From: a virus
IMG/VR virus record: IMGVR_UViG_3300032605_000083
Coordinates: 1 to 33,609 of that record
Length of the DNA stretch: 33,609 nucleotides
Reading direction: 5' to 3' (one strand)
A program made the position numbers and the translations under genes. The notes below the pieces were generated by a model, which was not told where the DNA came from, made no database searches, and saw only the letters and a list, made by a program, of their open reading frames with translations. Positions 5,339-27,561 of the stretch are shown here, one piece after another; the first letter of the stretch is position 1, and each line of letters starts with the position of its first letter.

Positions 5339-6877
5339 ATGAGTCTACATTTAGCAGCCCAACATTTACAATCCCAAGGTCGTGGAGATGATGACCACTT
5401 AGTCCATATGACGACTGGGGAATTACACGCCCTTAATGAACTTGCTAAAGCTCATGGACATTCACTAACTGTTAATCCTAAAACAGGACTTCCAGAAGCT
5501 GGATTCTTAAGTGCTATTTTACCAATGGCATTAGGTGCTTTAGGTGCAGTGACTCTTGACCCTGCTTTAGTAGACGCTGGTTTAACAGCATCACAAGCTG
5601 GATTATTAACATCTGCTGCTATTGGTCTTGGTGACTATGCTATAACAGGATCTTTAGGACAAGGCATTATGGCTGGTTTTGGTGCTTATAGCGGTGGTCA
5701 ATTAGGTTCAGATCTTAGTAATTTTGGAGCAGCTCCAGTAGAAACTCCACCACCTACATCTACACCAGCTCTTGATCCAACTACAGGTCAACCTGTTTTA
5801 ACTCCTGATGCACAACCACAGATCGCACCAAACTACAATACAACACCACAAGGGCTTCCTTCTGCAACACCAACTGCTACACCTACTGCAGGTCCAAATA
5901 CACCTAGTTTAAATAGATTGGGTTCTGGAATTGTAAACGCTGTAACGCACCCAGGAGACTTTTTATCTTCTGGACCAGGTGTTGGAATGGACGTATTAAA
6001 ATCATTAGCTCCTGCAGCTTTGGCTGGTTTACAAGGATTATCTTCTTCACAAACAAGTGGTCCTGTAGCTACTCAATCAAGCGTGCCTTCTGCTAATCAA
6101 TTAAAATATAATTCGCCTAATTTTCAACCCATGCTCCCAGCACAACCCAATCCAGCATATCAAGCTACTTATGCTAATTATGCTGCAAGTCCTTATAATC
6201 CATATGCAGCTAAAAAAGGTGGACTTATGGATGTGCATAAATATGCTGATGCTGGAGAAACAGATTTAAGTGACATTGCACCATCAAGTAAAAAAGATGT
6301 ATTAGCAGCAGAAAAAACAGCTATTGAAGATATTAACAAAGGTGCTGGAATGTTTAAACGGACTGCTAAAGAAATGCCTAAGGTTGAATCTACAGTTTAT
6401 GTAGACAAATCAGGCACAGCTAATTTACCTGCAGATCAAGCAGGTCTTGCTAACGCATCAGCTAATGCTGTATTAGCTCAAATGCCATCAAGTTATTTTG
6501 CAGGTATGCAAAAATTCCCAACTTTAGGTGCTATTAATACAAACCCTATCATTCCAAGTCAATATGCACATGGTGGTGAATTACACGGACTACCTGATTA
6601 CCATTTAGGTGATTATTCAGATGGTGGAAGACTTTTAAAAGGACCTGGTGATGGTGTATCAGATTCTATTCCTGCAACGATTGGTCATAAACAACCAGCT
6701 CGTTTAGCAGAAGGTGAATTTGTAATACCAGCTAGGATTGTTTCAGAACTTGGTAATGGCTCAACAGATGCAGGAGCTAAACGCCTTTATGAAATGATGG
6801 ATCGCATCAAAGCTAAACGTGCTAAAGCTAAAGATATAGCAGCAGACACTAAAGCATATAAATTTTTACCAGCATAA
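5339..6877 (+). CDS. Internal virion / structural protein with conserved terminal motifs
   Basis: 512 residues. Near the N-terminus is a motif seen in many podovirus-like virion proteins (QGRGDDDHLVHMTTGEL, then SLTVNPKTGLPEAGFL, about 13-58), followed by a hydrophobic Ala/Gly/Leu segment (about 58-115). A Pro/Thr/Ala-rich linker leads to a C-terminal block (LLKGPGDGVSDSIPATI, QPARLAEGEFVIPA, ELGNGSTDAGAKRL, about 430-490) and a basic Ala/Lys tail. The conserved ends joined by variable low-complexity sequence fit an ejected or internal protein. Function is inferred from context. Confidence 0.6.
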   Translation: MSLHLAAQHLQSQGRGDDDHLVHMTTGELHALNELAKAHGHSLTVNPKTGLPEAGFLSAILPMALGALGAVTLDPALVDAGLTASQAGLLTSAAIGLGDYAITGSLGQGIMAGFGAYSGGQLGSDLSNFGAAPVETPPPTSTPALDPTTGQPVLTPDAQPQIAPNYNTTPQGLPSATPTATPTAGPNTPSLNRLGSGIVNAVTHPGDFLSSGPGVGMDVLKSLAPAALAGLQGLSSSQTSGPVATQSSVPSANQLKYNSPNFQPMLPAQPNPAYQATYANYAASPYNPYAAKKGGLMDVHKYADAGETDLSDIAPSSKKDVLAAEKTAIEDINKGAGMFKRTAKEMPKVESTVYVDKSGTANLPADQAGLANASANAVLAQMPSSYFAGMQKFPTLGAINTNPIIPSQYAHGGELHGLPDYHLGDYSDGGRLLKGPGDGVSDSIPATIGHKQPARLAEGEFVIPARIVSELGNGSTDAGAKRLYEMMDRIKAKRAKAKDIAADTKAYKFLPA

Positions 6878-13154: not shown

Positions 13155-13226
13155 ATGTGGAATAAACCTACTGCAACAGAAATGCGTTTTGGCTTTGAAG
13201 TAACTATGTACGTAATGAATAAATAA
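13155..13226 (+). CDS. pqqA: PqqA-like coenzyme PQQ precursor peptide
   Basis: A 23-codon ORF starting MWNKP and containing GFEVTMY. PqqA peptides of beta- and gammaproteobacteria are 22-24 residues, usually start MW-x-KP and carry the invariant Glu and Tyr in E-V-T-x-Y. Here these are Glu15 and Tyr19, the two residues that PqqE cross-links as the first step of PQQ synthesis. A strong AGGAG (13143-13147) lies 7 nt before the ATG. The gene sits between two leftward genes but on the opposite strand, with a terminator 50 nt downstream, like a moron. No pqqB-E homologue is seen here, so host enzymes would be needed. The likely role is an auxiliary metabolic gene feeding PQQ-dependent methanol dehydrogenase. 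The peptide match is direct; the role is inference. Confidence 0.85.
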   Translation: MWNKPTATEMRFGFEVTMYVMNK

Positions 13227-13259
13227 TGGTATAATACTCGTCCCGATAAACTAGTTTAT
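13227..13259 (+). promoter_or_regulatory. Extended -10 element and perfect 14-bp palindrome downstream of pqqA
   Basis: TGGTATAAT (13227-13235) is an exact extended -10 (TGnTATAAT) just after the pqqA stop, with no convincing -35. It is followed by the perfect palindrome ATAAACTAGTTTAT (13246-13259). Together with the terminator this could yield a ~65-nt RNA starting near 13242. Alternatively the palindrome is an operator or part of the pqqA mRNA 3' structure. Confidence 0.4.
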
Positions 13260-14240: not shown

Positions 14241-14944
14241 TATACTAACTTTCCTATCCATTTACCGTTTGAATTAAGCACCATAGGCATAAGCTTTGGT
14301 TGTCCATCGAGTATCATACCACATCCAACAATGAACCTTGTTTTAAAGTTCTTAGCGTATTGGAATGCCATAGACTTTTGATTGATAAGACATCCGACTT
14401 GCATGCCCCAGACTAACGCATCAGGATTAGAGTAATAACCAATACTAAACTTAGTATGATAATGTCCTTGAACAGTATGCATGCCATATTGCATAGCTAC
14501 TTTAAGAACGTCAGCAGATAAGCCATGAGTAAAAAAGCAACGAGTGCCGTCAGATAAATCAATGGTATGATCATCCACCCATTTCCAATTGTTACTTACA
14601 CCGAGATACTCATTATAGTCCCTTAAGTAGCCTTTTGGAACGCCATGCTTCAAAGCACGTCTAAATAACATCGATGAGTGATTGGAATGAACAATCGTCA
14701 TCTTTGGAAAGATCTTTTCAAGTTGTTGAATATATGAGATTGATGCAGCAAGTTCATGACCTGCCGAAAATAAGTCTGGATCTGAATCATGCATAGACAT
14801 CGCATGCATATCTAATTCGTCACCAATATTGACTACATGGTCTGGTTTGTACTTCTTCTTTAAAGCCGTTAAAAATTTAAACGCATCTGGATGATGGTAT
14901 GGAATGTGTAAGTCTGATATAACAAGTACTGATTTATATTTCAT
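14240..14944 (-). CDS. Calcineurin-like metallophosphoesterase
   Basis: 234 residues with the ordered metal-binding motifs: D-L-H (11-13), GDELD (41-45), S-N-H (87-89), H-G (140-141) and G-H-Y-H (160-163). These bind two metal ions that hydrolyse phosphoesters. The substrate may be a nucleic acid end or a nucleotide; phage copies often sit with DNA-metabolism genes as here. AGAGAGG is its Shine-Dalgarno sequence, 5 nt before the ATG. That sequence is the exact complement of the loop motif in the candidate small RNA at 23382. Confidence 0.85.
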   Translation of the reverse strand: MKYKSVLVISDLHIPYHHPDAFKFLTALKKKYKPDHVVNIGDELDMHAMSMHDSDPDLFSAGHELAASISYIQQLEKIFPKMTIVHSNHSSMLFRRALKHGVPKGYLRDYNEYLGVSNNWKWVDDHTIDLSDGTRCFFTHGLSADVLKVAMQYGMHTVQGHYHTKFSIGYYSNPDALVWGMQVGCLINQKSMAFQYAKNFKTRFIVGCGMILDGQPKLMPMVLNSNGKWIGKLV

Positions 14945-23123: not shown

Positions 23124-23152
23124 ATTATGCAACATCAAAATACCAATGTCAA
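23124..23152 (-). promoter_or_regulatory. Strong leftward sigma70-type promoter
   Basis: On the minus strand a perfect TTGACA (23152-23147), a 17-nt spacer and CATAAT (23129-23124) give a near-consensus promoter. Transcription would start near 23117, about 25 nt before the first gene of the 10-kb leftward operon. Confidence 0.75.
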
Positions 23153-23299
23153 TATGTCGTACTCATATTAATTCATGTGTTAATTATATTTGCCTGTAAA
23201 AATGGTTTTCACTCAAAATACAGACAAATCCCTTTTGAATGAAACACTTACAAGAATTAAACGCAAAAAAGTGATATATTGACAAAAACAAAAAAGTCT

Positions 23300-23313
23300 A
23301 ACGAATATTCGTT
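23300..23313. promoter_or_regulatory. Perfect 14-bp palindrome, possible operator
   Basis: AACGAATATTCGTT is its own reverse complement. It lies 16 nt after a TTGACA (23279-23284) on the plus strand in the space between divergent promoters, a typical place for a repressor site. Confidence 0.4.
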
Positions 23314-23348
23314 GTATTTTTTCTAACACAAGATGTAGTAATAAATGC

Positions 23349-23375
23349 TTGACAAAACACAACATATTGTGTAAT
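23349..23375 (+). promoter_or_regulatory. Rightward promoter with internal inverted repeat
   Basis: TTGACA (23349-23354) and TGTAAT (23370-23375), 15-nt spacer. Between and into the -10 lies the inverted repeat ACACAA-CATA-TTGTGT (23357-23372), placed where a bound protein would block polymerase. It is followed only by the structured segment ending at the 23456-23490 terminator, not by a gene. Confidence 0.55.
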
Positions 23376-23381
23376 GTTTCA

Positions 23382-23488
23382 AATATCAGATCCCTCTCTG
23401 TCTGATGCTTTTCTTTCGTTCATACGATACCCCTCGGTGCCTCTCTCACCGACCCAAAAACCCTGAACTGATCATTCGGGGTTTTTTC
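23382..23488 (+). ncRNA. Candidate ~105-nt small RNA with two CCTCTCT loops
   Basis: Bounded by the promoter at 23349 and a clear terminator, with no plausible ORF. Three stems can be drawn: ATCAGA/TCTGAT (23385-23406), TCGGTG/CACCGA (23434-23452) and the terminator stem. The loops of the first two both show CCTCTCT, the complement of AGAGAGG. AGAGAGG is the Shine-Dalgarno sequence at the phage genes starting at 23092, 14944, 31526 and 30724. This is the layout of anti-Shine-Dalgarno regulatory RNAs. Existence and targets are inference from sequence. Confidence 0.5.
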
Positions 23489-23499: not shown

Positions 23500-23527
23500 T
23501 TGCATTTTTTTTCAGTTTGTGTATTAT
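23500..23527 (+). promoter_or_regulatory. Rightward early promoter
   Basis: TTGCAT (23500-23505), 16-nt spacer, TATTAT (23522-23527). It starts just after the terminator and would give a leader of about 350 nt before the first gene at 23888. ATTGAGAGCAA just downstream is repeated at the promoter at 24896. Confidence 0.55.
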
Positions 23528-23533
23528 TGTCAT

Positions 23534-23887
23534 TGAGAGCAACAAAGTATGAATGAGAGAAAAATGGATTAGCTATTCAGCTCTTCCGTCTTTTCTTATT
23601 CCTTTTTGTTACTATCCGTTCTCCAGACGTTACTAATGCACCTAAATGGGTGGCGTGGAAGAATACATAGGCTCGTTTACACCTGACGGCACGCCTCGTG
23701 ATCTTAAATGGGTATCACACAAGTTTACTAGTCATGGGGTGGTTGGTCTTTGCCTCTAGTAAATGAGTCAACATTAACTCAGTGTAGGATTGGTATTGAG
23801 TAGCAGTAATATCTCAGTATGGGTCAAAGGCGGTCATTACCACCCTTGGCAGAGCTATTGTCTAAAGATATGTAAATAGGAGGAAAT
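23534..23887 (+). other. Long non-coding leader with alternative stems
   Basis: No convincing gene on either strand. Visible structure: TTTACTAG (23724-23731) pairs with CTAGTAAA (23756-23763). ACTCA (23777-23781) can pair either with TGAGT at 23764 or with TGAGT at 23797, so two stems exclude each other. A short ORF (23646-23759, starting MGGVEEYIG) lacks a Shine-Dalgarno sequence. The segment may be a regulatory leader, a separate RNA or decayed coding sequence. Confidence 0.4.
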
Positions 23888-24055
23888 ATGAGTTGGGAGA
23901 AACGTAAACTACACATAAACGATAATTGGTTTTGTCAAGTTTGTAATTCGTACAATAAAGTGTATGATAAGAAACTGAGAGTAGTAATTAAAGAATGTAA
24001 AGAATGTAAGGCTTCTATTCACCCAAACATAGAGATTAATAAAAATGAAGCTTAA
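23888..24055 (+). CDS. Small zinc-ribbon-like protein
   Basis: 55 residues. Two Cys pairs, CQVC (16-19) and CKEC (37-40), are spaced as in a zinc ribbon, with basic residues between. AGGAGGAAAT precedes the ATG, the best Shine-Dalgarno sequence of this block. It is the first gene after the rightward promoter and may bind nucleic acid or host polymerase; the role is unknown. Confidence 0.65.
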   Translation: MSWEKRKLHINDNWFCQVCNSYNKVYDKKLRVVIKECKECKASIHPNIEINKNEA

Positions 24056-24251
24056 AGACCTAAAGAAAAATAATATAGAAAATGTAGTAAAGTTTGAAGA
24101 TGGTCTTCATGGAGATGTCATCATGCATGACCTAGAAAACAATATGTCTTTTGTATTATTTGATGCAGAGGATATGGATGGAAATGAATGCATTGGAACA
24201 AGAATTTATTATAAGGATCTATACGATGAATTTCACTCACGCAGTTGTTGA
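24045..24251 (+). CDS. Small acidic early protein, function unknown
   Basis: 68 residues; a basic start (MKLKDLKKNN) then an acidic beta-rich body (KFEDGLHGDVIMHDLENN, FDAEDMDGNE). It starts inside the end of the previous gene (11-nt overlap) and has only a weak Shine-Dalgarno sequence. Family not recognised. Confidence 0.55.
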   Translation: MKLKDLKKNNIENVVKFEDGLHGDVIMHDLENNMSFVLFDAEDMDGNECIGTRIYYKDLYDEFHSRSC

Positions 24252-24399
24252 TGATGGAGATATTATAAGAAAATACCGATGGTCAAAGAGGGAAGCCAAA
24301 TGGTATAAAGATAGTCACCCAGATATAGAAGTAGTAGAATTACCAAAAGAGAAAATCAAACCATTTAACACTAACGATTATGAGGAGGCACCATATTAA
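24226..24399 (+). CDS. Small early protein, function unknown
   Basis: 57 residues from the ATG at 24226, which has AAGGA 8 nt upstream; the longer frame from 24151 overlaps the previous gene by 100 nt and is less likely. The helix KYRWSKREAKWYKDSHPD is the main feature. The stop overlaps the next ATG (TAATG). Confidence 0.55.
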   Translation: MNFTHAVVDDGDIIRKYRWSKREAKWYKDSHPDIEVVELPKEKIKPFNTNDYEEAPY

Positions 24400-24557
24400 T
24401 GGCTGAATCAAAGAAAACAATTATTGTAGAAGATGTAGTAGTCAAAGGTTATATTAAACACGCCAATGGCCGTAAGACCGTATTTGAATTTAATAAGAAA
24501 GACTTTAAACCAACAGCATTTGAAAAGATATTTCAAGAAGTAGGGGAGAAATTCTAA
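24399..24557 (+). CDS. Small early protein, function unknown
   Basis: 52 residues (starts MAESKKTIIVEDVVVKGYIK) with TAATG overlaps at both ends and AGGAGG upstream, so translation is likely. Beta-strand start, basic middle (RKTVFEFNKKDFKP). No family recognised. Confidence 0.6.
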   Translation: MAESKKTIIVEDVVVKGYIKHANGRKTVFEFNKKDFKPTAFEKIFQEVGEKF

Positions 24558-24832
24558 TGTTTACTAAGCTCGATGATGAAAGACAAGCAAAGTTTATCAA
24601 TAACTTTTTATCACAAAATCCTAATTGCACGATTAAAGAGGTCATTCAGAAATGCGTGACTAACCGAACTCGCTTAAAGTATTTAGAGAGTCAAGGTTAT
24701 ATAACACTACCTAAGCCATTGAACAAGACTGAAGTCAGTAAGCTTGGTGCAGAAGCAATCAAAGAAAAGTTTAAAAATTATATTTCTGTATCTGTTGGTC
24801 GTGAGTATCGTAAGTGGGATAGATACCAATAA
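24557..24832 (+). CDS. Possible winged-helix-type DNA-binding protein
   Basis: 91 residues. Helices ERQAKFINNFLSQN, TIKEVIQKC and TNRTRLKYLESQGYI, the last followed by a possible wing (TLPKP), resemble a winged helix-turn-helix. The C-terminal part is basic and aromatic (GREYRKWDRYQ). It ends the first rightward early transcription unit and could be an early regulator. Inference from secondary-structure pattern only. Confidence 0.45.
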   Translation: MFTKLDDERQAKFINNFLSQNPNCTIKEVIQKCVTNRTRLKYLESQGYITLPKPLNKTEVSKLGAEAIKEKFKNYISVSVGREYRKWDRYQ

Positions 24833-24895
24833 TTCTTTACGCTTATTGATGGCAATCGTCAATGGGTATATCGTAAAAAGACATAAATAGTTTTC

Positions 24896-24923
24896 TTGAT
24901 TGAGAGCAAGAATTCGATATAAT
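24896..24923 (+). promoter_or_regulatory. Rightward promoter for replication genes
   Basis: TTGATT (24896-24901), 16-nt spacer, perfect TATAAT (24918-24923). It lies in the 109-nt gap before the coiled-coil, helicase and primase genes. Its spacer includes most of ATTGAGAGCAA, shared with the promoter region at 23530. Confidence 0.7.
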
Positions 24924-24941
24924 AATTTATAGGGAGATGTA

Positions 24942-25238
24942 GTGAAGTCAGTAACAAACCATGATGATTTAATACAAACTAATCTTGAACTATCTCAAAC
25001 AGTAGCAGAACTTGCTGATGAAGTTGAATCGTTAAAAGCGATTATAGCTTCTAAACAATGGAACGCAACGGAGTTTGAACAGGATTATATACTTCACGAA
25101 TATCAATCAGTCGTAGCACAAAATAGGTTGCTAATGATAGAAATACAATCTCTAAAGGATTCACGAGATATGTATCAGAATAGAAATGATATACTCACTC
25201 GTGATTTGAATAGTCTAAAACGCAAATTAAAAACCTAA
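24942..25238 (+). CDS. Coiled-coil protein upstream of helicase
   Basis: 98 residues from a GTG with GGGAG 5 nt upstream. Almost all coiled coil (LELSQTVAELADEVESLKAI, then LLMIEIQSLKDSRDMY). Possibly an accessory or scaffold for replication; no family recognised. Confidence 0.6.
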   Translation: MKSVTNHDDLIQTNLELSQTVAELADEVESLKAIIASKQWNATEFEQDYILHEYQSVVAQNRLLMIEIQSLKDSRDMYQNRNDILTRDLNSLKRKLKT

Positions 25239-25267
25239 CCAGAGGTTATCTGGAAGTTAAGGAGAAT

Positions 25268-26749
25268 ATGTTAAAGTTAAGGGAGCATCAACTTGGAGTT
25301 ATAGATAAGTTGAGAGAAGGGTTTAAACAAGGTCACAGATCACAATTACTTTACGCACCAACAGGATTCGGCAAGACAGAAGTAGCTATATCACTTATGA
25401 AGGCTGCTTCTGATAAAGGCAAACGATCAGCAATGATTATGGATAGAATTGTTCTAGTCGATCAAACAAGCCAACGATTAGACAAATACGATATACCACA
25501 TGGCGTATATCAATCAGACCATTGGAAGTATAACACGACTGAACCTATTCAAATATGTTCAGCACAAACACTAGAACGCAGACAAGACTTTCCAAAGATT
25601 GATCTTCTCATTGTAGATGAATGCCATATTGCAAGACGAGAAATCACGGAGTTTATTAAGAAAAACCCTAAACTAAAAGTCATAGGATTAACTGCCACTC
25701 CGTTTACACGAGGTCTCGGTAAAATATATTCTAACGTGGTGACAGGTTCAACCACAGAATTTTTAGTTATCAACAAATGGTTAGCACCACTTAAAGTTTA
25801 TATCGCCAAACAAATCGATATGAAAGGTGCTAAGAAAGTAGCAGGTGAATGGTCTCAAGATGTGGCTACCGAAAGGAGTATGAAGCTCACAGGAGACATT
25901 GTTCAGGAATGGATTGTTAAAACACATCAGATATACGGCAGACCGAGAAAGACTATTGTATTCTGTTCTGGAGTAGCACATGGACAAGACTTAGTAGCTC
26001 AGTTTGCCGAGAAAGGATATAACTTTGTTTCTATATCTTATCTTGATGAATCCAATGCCAAGCGTAAAGTCATTGAAGACTTTAGTAAACCCGATACCAC
26101 TATTCATGGTTTAATTGCAACAGACATCTTAACTCGTGGCTTCGATGTTCCCGATGTTATGATCGGAGTATCAGCACGACCCTTCGCTAAATCATTATCC
26201 TCCCATGTTCAACAAATGGGAAGAGTTATGCGATCATTTAAAGGTAAAGACTTTGGTCTATGGTTAGATCATAGCGGTAATTATTTACGCTTTAGAGATG
26301 ATTGGGAAGAAGTCTTTTTGAATGGCGTTAAAGATTTAGATACTCAAGAAGAGAAAGCCAAAGGCGAACCATCAGAACGAGAAAAGAAAGAAGCGGTTTG
26401 TCCCGCATGTCAAGCATTATGGATACCACAGGCAACCGAATGTGAATGTGGTTATAAGAAACAGAAGCCTATGTTCTCCACCAAAGCGGGAGAGCTTCAT
26501 GAGTTTGTTTCTATGTCAAACGAAGAATACGAAGAACGTCAGAAGTTCTATTCCGAATTACTTTCAATCGCTGATATGAAACAATTCAATCCTCATTGGG
26601 CGATGAAGACGTTTAAACAGAAGTATGGTGTCTTACCTACCAAGTTAGAATATAGCAGAAAAGAACCAAGTATCAAGACTATGAATTATGTTAAAAGCAG
26701 AATGATTGCTTATGCTCGTGCTAACAAACCATCTAGGAGAGCAGCATGA
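25268..26749 (+). CDS. SF2 DEAD/DEAH-box (RecQ/UvsW-like) helicase with zinc ribbon
   Basis: 493 residues. Motif I is APTGFGKT (30-37), motif II D-E-C-H (117-120), motif III T-A-T-P (142-145) and motif VI QMGRVMR (316-322), giving two RecA-like domains. A C-terminal zinc-binding element has Cys378, 381, 392 and 394. It would unwind DNA for replication or recombination-dependent replication. It overlaps the primase gene by 4 nt; the pair form a replication unit. Confidence 0.9.
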   Translation: MLKLREHQLGVIDKLREGFKQGHRSQLLYAPTGFGKTEVAISLMKAASDKGKRSAMIMDRIVLVDQTSQRLDKYDIPHGVYQSDHWKYNTTEPIQICSAQTLERRQDFPKIDLLIVDECHIARREITEFIKKNPKLKVIGLTATPFTRGLGKIYSNVVTGSTTEFLVINKWLAPLKVYIAKQIDMKGAKKVAGEWSQDVATERSMKLTGDIVQEWIVKTHQIYGRPRKTIVFCSGVAHGQDLVAQFAEKGYNFVSISYLDESNAKRKVIEDFSKPDTTIHGLIATDILTRGFDVPDVMIGVSARPFAKSLSSHVQQMGRVMRSFKGKDFGLWLDHSGNYLRFRDDWEEVFLNGVKDLDTQEEKAKGEPSEREKKEAVCPACQALWIPQATECECGYKKQKPMFSTKAGELHEFVSMSNEEYEERQKFYSELLSIADMKQFNPHWAMKTFKQKYGVLPTKLEYSRKEPSIKTMNYVKSRMIAYARANKPSRRAA

Positions 26750-27561
26750 CATTCCAAGACTTCGCCAGAATTCATGGTTTAATTATCAACAACATTATCC
26801 CATATAAATCAATTCGAGTTCCAACAGAAGATAAGCCAAGAAAACTAAATGGCTCTTATATGTTTAAGGGTGATGTTGGATTCGTGATTAATTGGGCAAC
26901 AATGGATAAACCAGCAACGTGGTTTCCCGATAAAGATACGCCTGTGGTCATCAACAAAGTTTCTAAAGCCAAGCTCAATGAAGAAAAGATTCGTTTAGCA
27001 GAATTAGCCCGTAAGAAAGCGGGTTGGATTATGCACCAATGCAAACAAGAAACTCACCCATATCTTGCTTCTAAAGGCTTTCCAGATATGTTAGACAACG
27101 TCTGGGATAACAACGGAGAAAAACTATTGGTAGTCCCCATGCGACAATTCAAAACGCTGATTGGGGTTCAACTCATCAATGCACAAGGGGAGAAGAAGTT
27201 CCTGTATGGACAAACGAGCAAGGGTGCAACTCTCGCCTTTAACGCAAAGGGATTTCCTATCTTTTGCGAGGGTTATGCGACTGCTCTCAGTATCAGGGAG
27301 GTCTTGAAAACTAGCAATATCAAGTATTCTATCTATACATGCTTCAGTGCAAGCAACATGAAGCTCATAGCTAGGAAATTCAGGAAAGGTCTCGTTGTCG
27401 CAGATAACGACAGAAATGGCATTGGAGAGAACTCCGCTATTGAAACAGGCAAGCCGTATTGGCTCAGCATGACAGCTGGGAATGACTTTAATGACGACCA
27501 TATTGCTCGTGGCACTCCCGAAATGGCAGAAGAGTTAAAAAAACTAATACTATCTAGTTAA
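26746..27561 (+). CDS. Toprim-domain primase
   Basis: 271 residues. The Toprim acidic residues are Glu175 (FCEGYATA) and Asp220-x-Asp222 (VVADNDRNG), followed by a Gly-rich loop. The N-terminal third has a strand-rich domain without zinc cysteines, so template recognition must work differently from zinc-finger primases. Coupled to the helicase by ATGA. Makes RNA primers for phage replication. The end converges on the SleB-like gene with a 4-nt overlap. Confidence 0.85.
   Translation: MTFQDFARIHGLIINNIIPYKSIRVPTEDKPRKLNGSYMFKGDVGFVINWATMDKPATWFPDKDTPVVINKVSKAKLNEEKIRLAELARKKAGWIMHQCKQETHPYLASKGFPDMLDNVWDNNGEKLLVVPMRQFKTLIGVQLINAQGEKKFLYGQTSKGATLAFNAKGFPIFCEGYATALSIREVLKTSNIKYSIYTCFSASNMKLIARKFRKGLVVADNDRNGIGENSAIETGKPYWLSMTAGNDFNDDHIARGTPEMAEELKKLILSS

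Follow-up and report, generated by a model that had tools for sequence, protein, structure and literature searches.

Which molecule is specified by the short stretch between a promoter and a terminator in the divergent control region of this phage, and on what would it act? The window (the whole 33,609-nt stretch that was analysed, from an IMG/VR virus record) had been given a first-pass annotation that placed a small RNA (sRNA) here and proposed that its loops bind Shine-Dalgarno (SD) elements. With a probability of roughly 0.75, judged from the nucleotide sequences, the locus instead encodes a tandem antisense RNA, with a promoter and a terminator of its own, that refolds the leader of the adjoining replication operon.

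A predicted small RNA gene in front of a structured leader

The promoter with its internal inverted repeat, the hairpins and the terminator that had been described are present in the sequence, at 23349-23488, whereas the variable middle segment of the sRNA and a further promoter (P2, 23500-23527) with the structured leader behind it had been overlooked. The control region is composed as follows.

23124..23152, minus strand: leftward promoter of the divergent operon, TTGACA-17-CATAAT (scan, 11/12 consensus bases)
23349..23377, plus strand: P1, promoter of the sRNA, TTGACA (23349-23354), 17 nt, TAATGT (23372-23377); from the sequence, with a predicted start site
23358..23373, no strand: inverted repeat ACACAA-CATA-TTGTGT within P1, between the boxes, a candidate operator (from the sequence; inverted repeat I7 overlaps)
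23383..23488, plus strand: sRNA of about 105 nt, both ends predicted (fold z -5.3; module in relatives)
23384..23407, plus strand: hairpin 1 of the sRNA, loop CCCTCTCT (hairpin survey of relatives)
23434..23452, plus strand: hairpin 3 of the sRNA, loop CCTCTCT (hairpin survey of relatives)
23456..23488, plus strand: intrinsic terminator of the sRNA (hairpin 23456-23486, then a T-run; terminator scan)
23500..23527, plus strand: P2, promoter of the leader, TTGCAT, 16 nt, TATTAT (from the sequence)
23528..23887, plus strand: whole untranslated leader, about 360 nt, ending at AGGAGGAAATATG of gene 23888
23888..27561, plus strand: rightward operon with small genes, helicase (25268-26749) and primase (26746-27561) (ORF list, gene identification)

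The -10 box of P1 has three of six consensus bases and P1 is absent from the promoter scan output; in relatives P1 occupies the same position, with better -10 boxes than in the window. Its inverted repeat is kept in L004 and L005, while the arms are changed in L185, L008 and L019. The P2 pattern TTGCA/TANNNT likewise recurs in relatives, and the P2 start is predicted near 23528-23534; no open reading frame of at least 50 aa lies on the plus strand within 23528..23887. A further palindrome around AACGAATATTCGTT (window 23291-23322) is found between the divergent promoters and is likely a regulator site, and L011, L012, L016 and their relatives carry a long palindrome-like TATATAACATTTAGTTATATA upstream of P1, perhaps the operator of that clade. 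A replication origin was considered and rejected, its sole sign being a change in the sign of the GC skew near 24,000, which divergent transcription explains equally well.

The region 23349-23488 holds the promoter, three hairpins and the terminator. The predicted sRNA stretch folds at -30.2 kcal/mol, compared with -15.7 +/- 2.7 in dinucleotide shuffles (z -5.3), and this, together with the presence of the module in relatives, supports the prediction that the divergent control region encodes a structured phage sRNA. The motif CCTCTCT occurs twice (23393-23399 and 23440-23446), each time in a predicted hairpin loop as had been stated, so that at least two C-rich single-stranded loops, a feature of anti-SD sRNAs, are present.

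Relatives were collected by a helicase search, which yielded 80 viral loci, by a hairpin pattern (16 stretches) and by a leader pattern (93 stretches, 80 of these among the matches listed). The module and its spread are established by computation: near the helicase, the order P1, hairpin with a C-rich loop, variable middle, usually a second C-rich hairpin, terminator, P2 and leader recurs, with the sRNA, terminator, second promoter, structured leader of about 360 nt and helicase/primase operon in the same slot. In 42 loci, which take in close relatives, hairpins 1 and 3 were each found 40 times; hairpin 1 shows 19 different 5' arms with CCC or CCTC in 39/40 loops, and hairpin 3 shows 15 different arms with CCC or CCTC in 35/40. 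In L005 the stem of hairpin 3 is altered on both sides (GGTG/CACC to GCTG/CAGC) and the loop motif is retained.

Predicted pairing of the sRNA middle with the start of the leader

Between the C-rich hairpins, each sRNA carries a middle segment whose complement is found within the first tens of bases of the adjoining leader, even though both vary between clades. In the window the predicted duplex comprises 15 Watson-Crick pairs and two G-U pairs, and the leader strand involved is also part of a helix within the leader.

23409..23425, plus strand: antisense segment TTTTCTTTCGTTCATAC, variable middle of the sRNA (duplex; co-evolution)
23547..23563, plus strand: predicted target site of the sRNA in the leader, GTATGAATGAGAGAAAA (duplex)
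23541..23610, plus strand: 5' helix of the leader, its 5' strand overlapping the target site (MFE fold; covariation)

To assess the pairing, sRNA nt 19-62 and leader nt 1-40 were paired in silico, and the duplex energies of matched pairs were compared with those of pairs swapped between phages. In the discovery set of 30 loci, for which the segment limits were chosen after the pattern was seen, matched pairs reached -27.0 kcal/mol against -16.5 for swapped ones, and 0 of 20,000 permutations were as good; the same held (0/20,000) for its 11 divergent representatives. Because the limits had been set in this way, 12 further loci were used as a check, three of them (L116, L136, L159) with hand-set limits; here the energies were -30.2 and -18.6 kcal/mol, and again none of 20,000 permutations was as good, nor when two near-copies were removed (0/20,000). 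In a 4 x 9 grid that crossed sRNA segments with neighbouring segments (up to 16 representatives), the cell of the middle and the leader start gave z -7.87, while the other 35 cells ranged from -2.38 to +1.63. Since this cell alone stands out, base composition is not the cause of the pairing.

Tested locus by locus against dinucleotide shuffles (with hand-set limits in L059, L032 and L072), the pairing reached p<0.01 in 27 and p<0.05 in 37 of 45 loci, with p=0.003 in the window. It is absent in four of the 45 (L116, L137, L032, L072) and weak in another four (L012, L019, L025, L026); in the very distant relative L059, which scores 39.6 bits with the leader core model R1, the sRNA and leader pair at -43.4. 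The pairing is, as far as sequence comparison can tell, kept by co-evolution in many relatives, and the uncultured freshwater phage of the window probably makes an RNA of about 105 bases that pairs with the start of the neighbouring leader, an untranslated leader with helicase and primase genes downstream.

In the MFE fold of the window leader, 23541-23561 forms the 5' strand of a helix with 23591-23610. Among 16 representatives the leader 5' strand co-varies with leader nt 45-130, without an effect beyond nt 170; against nt 45-100, z is -5.6 for nt 1-40 and -6.6 for nt 6-45. One leader strand thus co-varies with two partners, so that sRNA pairing and the leader helix compete; like the competing helix, the co-evolved pairing is established by computation.

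These observations suggest the following course of events. The sRNA would be transcribed from its own promoter to its own terminator, directly upstream of its target and on the same strand, and its middle would pair with a stretch in the first 40 nt or so of the leader made from P2. Without the sRNA, this stretch would supply the 5' strand of the 5' helix within the leader itself; since sRNA binding and helix exclude each other, the sRNA is likely to refold the leader start. Both RNAs would be made, and would meet in trans, in the cell, and the outcome may be lower expression of the rightward operon with its helicase and primase, by premature termination, a block of translation or decay. The sRNA is best read as a switch acting on the leader, whether toward repression or toward activation. 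Sequestration of ribosome-binding sites (RBSs) by the freed leader strand was rejected as the route, given that modelling over 14 loci, in which start codons are uncertain, was mixed: blocking the site in silico clearly lowered RBS access in some loci (0.44 to 0.21 in the window), and no drop was seen in others (L004, L008, L020 and L025).

C-rich loops and alternative readings

In the anti-SD reading that follows the first-pass annotation, the CCUCUCU loops would block translation of phage genes led by AGAGAGG, chiefly the first leftward gene (23092), or of genes of the host. The motif search bears out the sites to the letter: AGAGAGG (counting its complement in the two loops) occurs six times in the window, where 2.5 are expected and 2 of 100 shuffles reach six, and the four other copies precede the starts at 14944, 23092, 30724 and 31526. 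The C-rich loops of hairpins 1 and 3 are also conserved while the stems vary in relatives, the pattern by which the annotation had proposed to judge its own reading. Furthermore, the first leftward gene keeps GAGAGGAA in L005, L185, L008 and L009, and the hairpin loop CCTCCTTTCT of L153 is identical to what we take to be the 3' end of betaproteobacterial 16S rRNA. However, the two loops of the window match 19 of its 63 RBS regions with a 5-mer and six with a 6-mer, compared with averages of 23.0 and 7.1 for shuffled loops of the same composition (window genome alone), and any C/U-rich loop fits purine-rich SD sites as well. Targeting of the phage's own genes through SD elements was rejected on this ground. 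Nor did the loop segments co-evolve with any of the nine neighbouring segments, apart from hairpin 3 with lead3 (uncorrected p 0.02); the sole partner that co-evolves phage by phage is the start of the rightward leader, through the middle of the sRNA and not through the two loops; the claimed targets are not supported. An anti-SD sRNA is therefore an unlikely description of this RNA.

We regard as slightly more doubtful a version in cis: transcripts from P1 would at times read through the terminator, and the two complementary segments would then make up a single long-range helix within one leader, with no free sRNA. Covariation cannot tell pairing in cis from pairing in trans, and both segments lie on the same strand in the same order, about 120 nt apart in the window. 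By contrast, the stretch from the terminator to the P2 start carries no pairing signal (middle against spacer, z +0.46), and the signal begins only past the predicted P2 start; moreover, the terminator is strong, the second promoter recurs, and leaders made from P2 could be reached in trans only.

The loops might also serve as a decoy for a protein or for ribosomes, with leader pairing as a secondary matter. Their character is retained from clade to clade, and they do not co-vary with the sequence around them, but no candidate protein is known and the leader pairing would be left unexplained, which makes such a decoy highly improbable. A chance or DNA-level feature that is never transcribed is barely credible in the face of the fold z-score of -5.3 and the co-evolved pairing.

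For the tandem antisense RNA, an unchanging partner of loops 1 and 3 is probable, namely RBSs, a protein or an invariant part of the leader. Pairing of the loops with the leader core was rejected, as hairpins 1 and 3 show no co-variation with core segments c1-c4; the core is nearly invariant, so that a constant contact between loops and core may still exist. In a wider proposal, which we put forward only tentatively, a switch of two RNAs, each from a family that Rfam lacks, would set the expression of the replication operon in a large, mostly uncultured group of freshwater phages: the tandem antisense RNA would displace the 5' helix of a leader of about 360 nt that acts in cis on RNA polymerase or ribosomes, and the C-rich loops would mimic the 3' end of 16S rRNA, tying the switch to host translation.

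The leader core, its distribution and comparable antisense RNAs

Downstream of the 5' helix lies the best conserved part of the leader.

23613..23728, plus strand: most conserved part of the leader core RNA, model R1 (cmsearch 118.8 bits, the window sequence itself being in the model; covarying pairs)

Alignment A1 of 42 leaders has 42 consensus pairs, of which 23 are changed on both sides. The leader core model (36 sequences) matches 36 of the 77 sources searched from the helicase set; in GC-rich phages the core scores 26 to 55 bits and sits upstream of the helicase as in the window. Neither the sRNA nor the leader matched a family of Rfam 15 at gathering score, and L055 alone gave weak sub-threshold matches to anti-hemB and Betaproteobacteria_toxic_sRNA. 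The leader core would represent a novel RNA family. A tRNA or tmRNA nature of the leader was rejected, as ARAGORN finds none in the window; its one report from 16 relatives is an ordinary tRNA-Thr that L114 carries ahead of the leader. L055 alone has a tRNA match in Rfam next to a leader copy (6539-6654, 116 nt); this match overlaps the end of the first copy and is not reported by ARAGORN. The core is present in two tandem copies in L055 (6455-6562 and 6837-6954) and in L078 (1583-1690 and 1965-2082).

An sRNA/leader pair without a match to the leader core model is found in L028, L034, L058 and L061. Conversely, many phages have the core without an evident sRNA and with a different, self-contained 5' part, which often ends in a terminator-like hairpin (both by eye). 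In the two such loci that were checked, a YdaS/P22-Cro-like gene lies directly upstream of the core (L120 1801-2079, L156 5722-5943). In lambda, nutR/tR1 is located after cro; as the core follows a Cro-like gene in the corresponding place, the leader might act on transcription. The genes downstream vary, with helicase and primase in some phages and apparently virion genes in L119 (by eye). L125 and L167 were rejected as carriers of the core (20.6 bits or less), as was the one match in prokaryote genomes, L193 in Aeromonas, which is taken as chance because the rest of the core is missing and the model search does not return it. A nucleotide search of the region against named phages gave no match, and no description of this sRNA or leader was found among the open-access papers listed.

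Only a handful of antisense control RNAs have, to our knowledge, been described in phages, mostly enteric ones; C4 and CI are examples. ColE1 RNA I is a multi-hairpin RNA of about 100 nt that refolds the structured, leader-like RNA II and is encoded on the opposite strand. The sRNA resembles it in size, in its several hairpins and in acting, as predicted, on a structured leader, but sRNA and target here both lie on the plus strand, in tandem. In LhrC and sX13, examples of sRNAs with C-rich anti-SD loops, these repeated loops are thought to do the targeting. Such loops are repeated here as well, whereas the co-evolved pairing is carried by the middle segment. LhrC is the subject of PMC4132741 and sX13 that of PMC3771888.

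The closest parallels are found among phage RNAs, and the sRNA is best read as resembling P4 CI or P1 C4 RNA in kind, as judged by its pairing, and not in family. P4 CI RNA binds the leader ahead of the P4 replication genes by pairing at two flanking sites, seqA and seqC, causes termination and is processed from the leader transcript itself (PMC4825925). The sRNA would share with it the nature of a control-region antisense RNA on the untranslated leader of replication genes. Unlike CI RNA, it has its own promoter and terminator and its target a separate promoter, and it shows a single co-varying site, none of the other eight neighbouring segments standing out. C4 RNA of P1/P7 is about 77 nt long with three stem-loops, has variable loops that set target specificity and is released from a longer transcript by RNase P (PMC5320573); C4 antisense RNA is listed as RF01695 in PMC2864571. 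Three stem-loops and a variable, target-specifying part would be common to both phage RNAs, whereas the promoter and terminator read from the sequence here speak against release from a longer transcript. Searches with model RF01695 were negative for the window, for 10 relatives (gathering score) and for nine relatives (up to E 1).

Here sequence data suffice to recognize an antisense control RNA whose target co-evolves with it in dozens of phages, and it is adjoined by a conserved leader RNA that has no Rfam entry. The pairing is open to a test by mutation and compensating mutation, and the module could serve to mark the control region in a group of uncultured phages. In MW202674, a complete deposited phage genome, the core has leftward SSB and Erf genes on one side and a rightward gene on the other; the leader RNA (MW202674.1 5130-5377, L194 1441-1688) is annotated there as two opposite-strand hypothetical proteins, a probable mis-annotation. 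Elsewhere in the window, a gene for the PQQ precursor peptide PqqA (13155-13226, plus strand, 23 aa; Pfam PF08042, E 1.9e-9) is overlapped by a 58-nt stretch (about 13176-13233) with 94.8% identity to Methylophilaceae phage P19250A. A Lake Baikal phage with PqqA is already in print (PMC7678222). Together, the PqqA gene and the P19250A match point to a methylotroph host.
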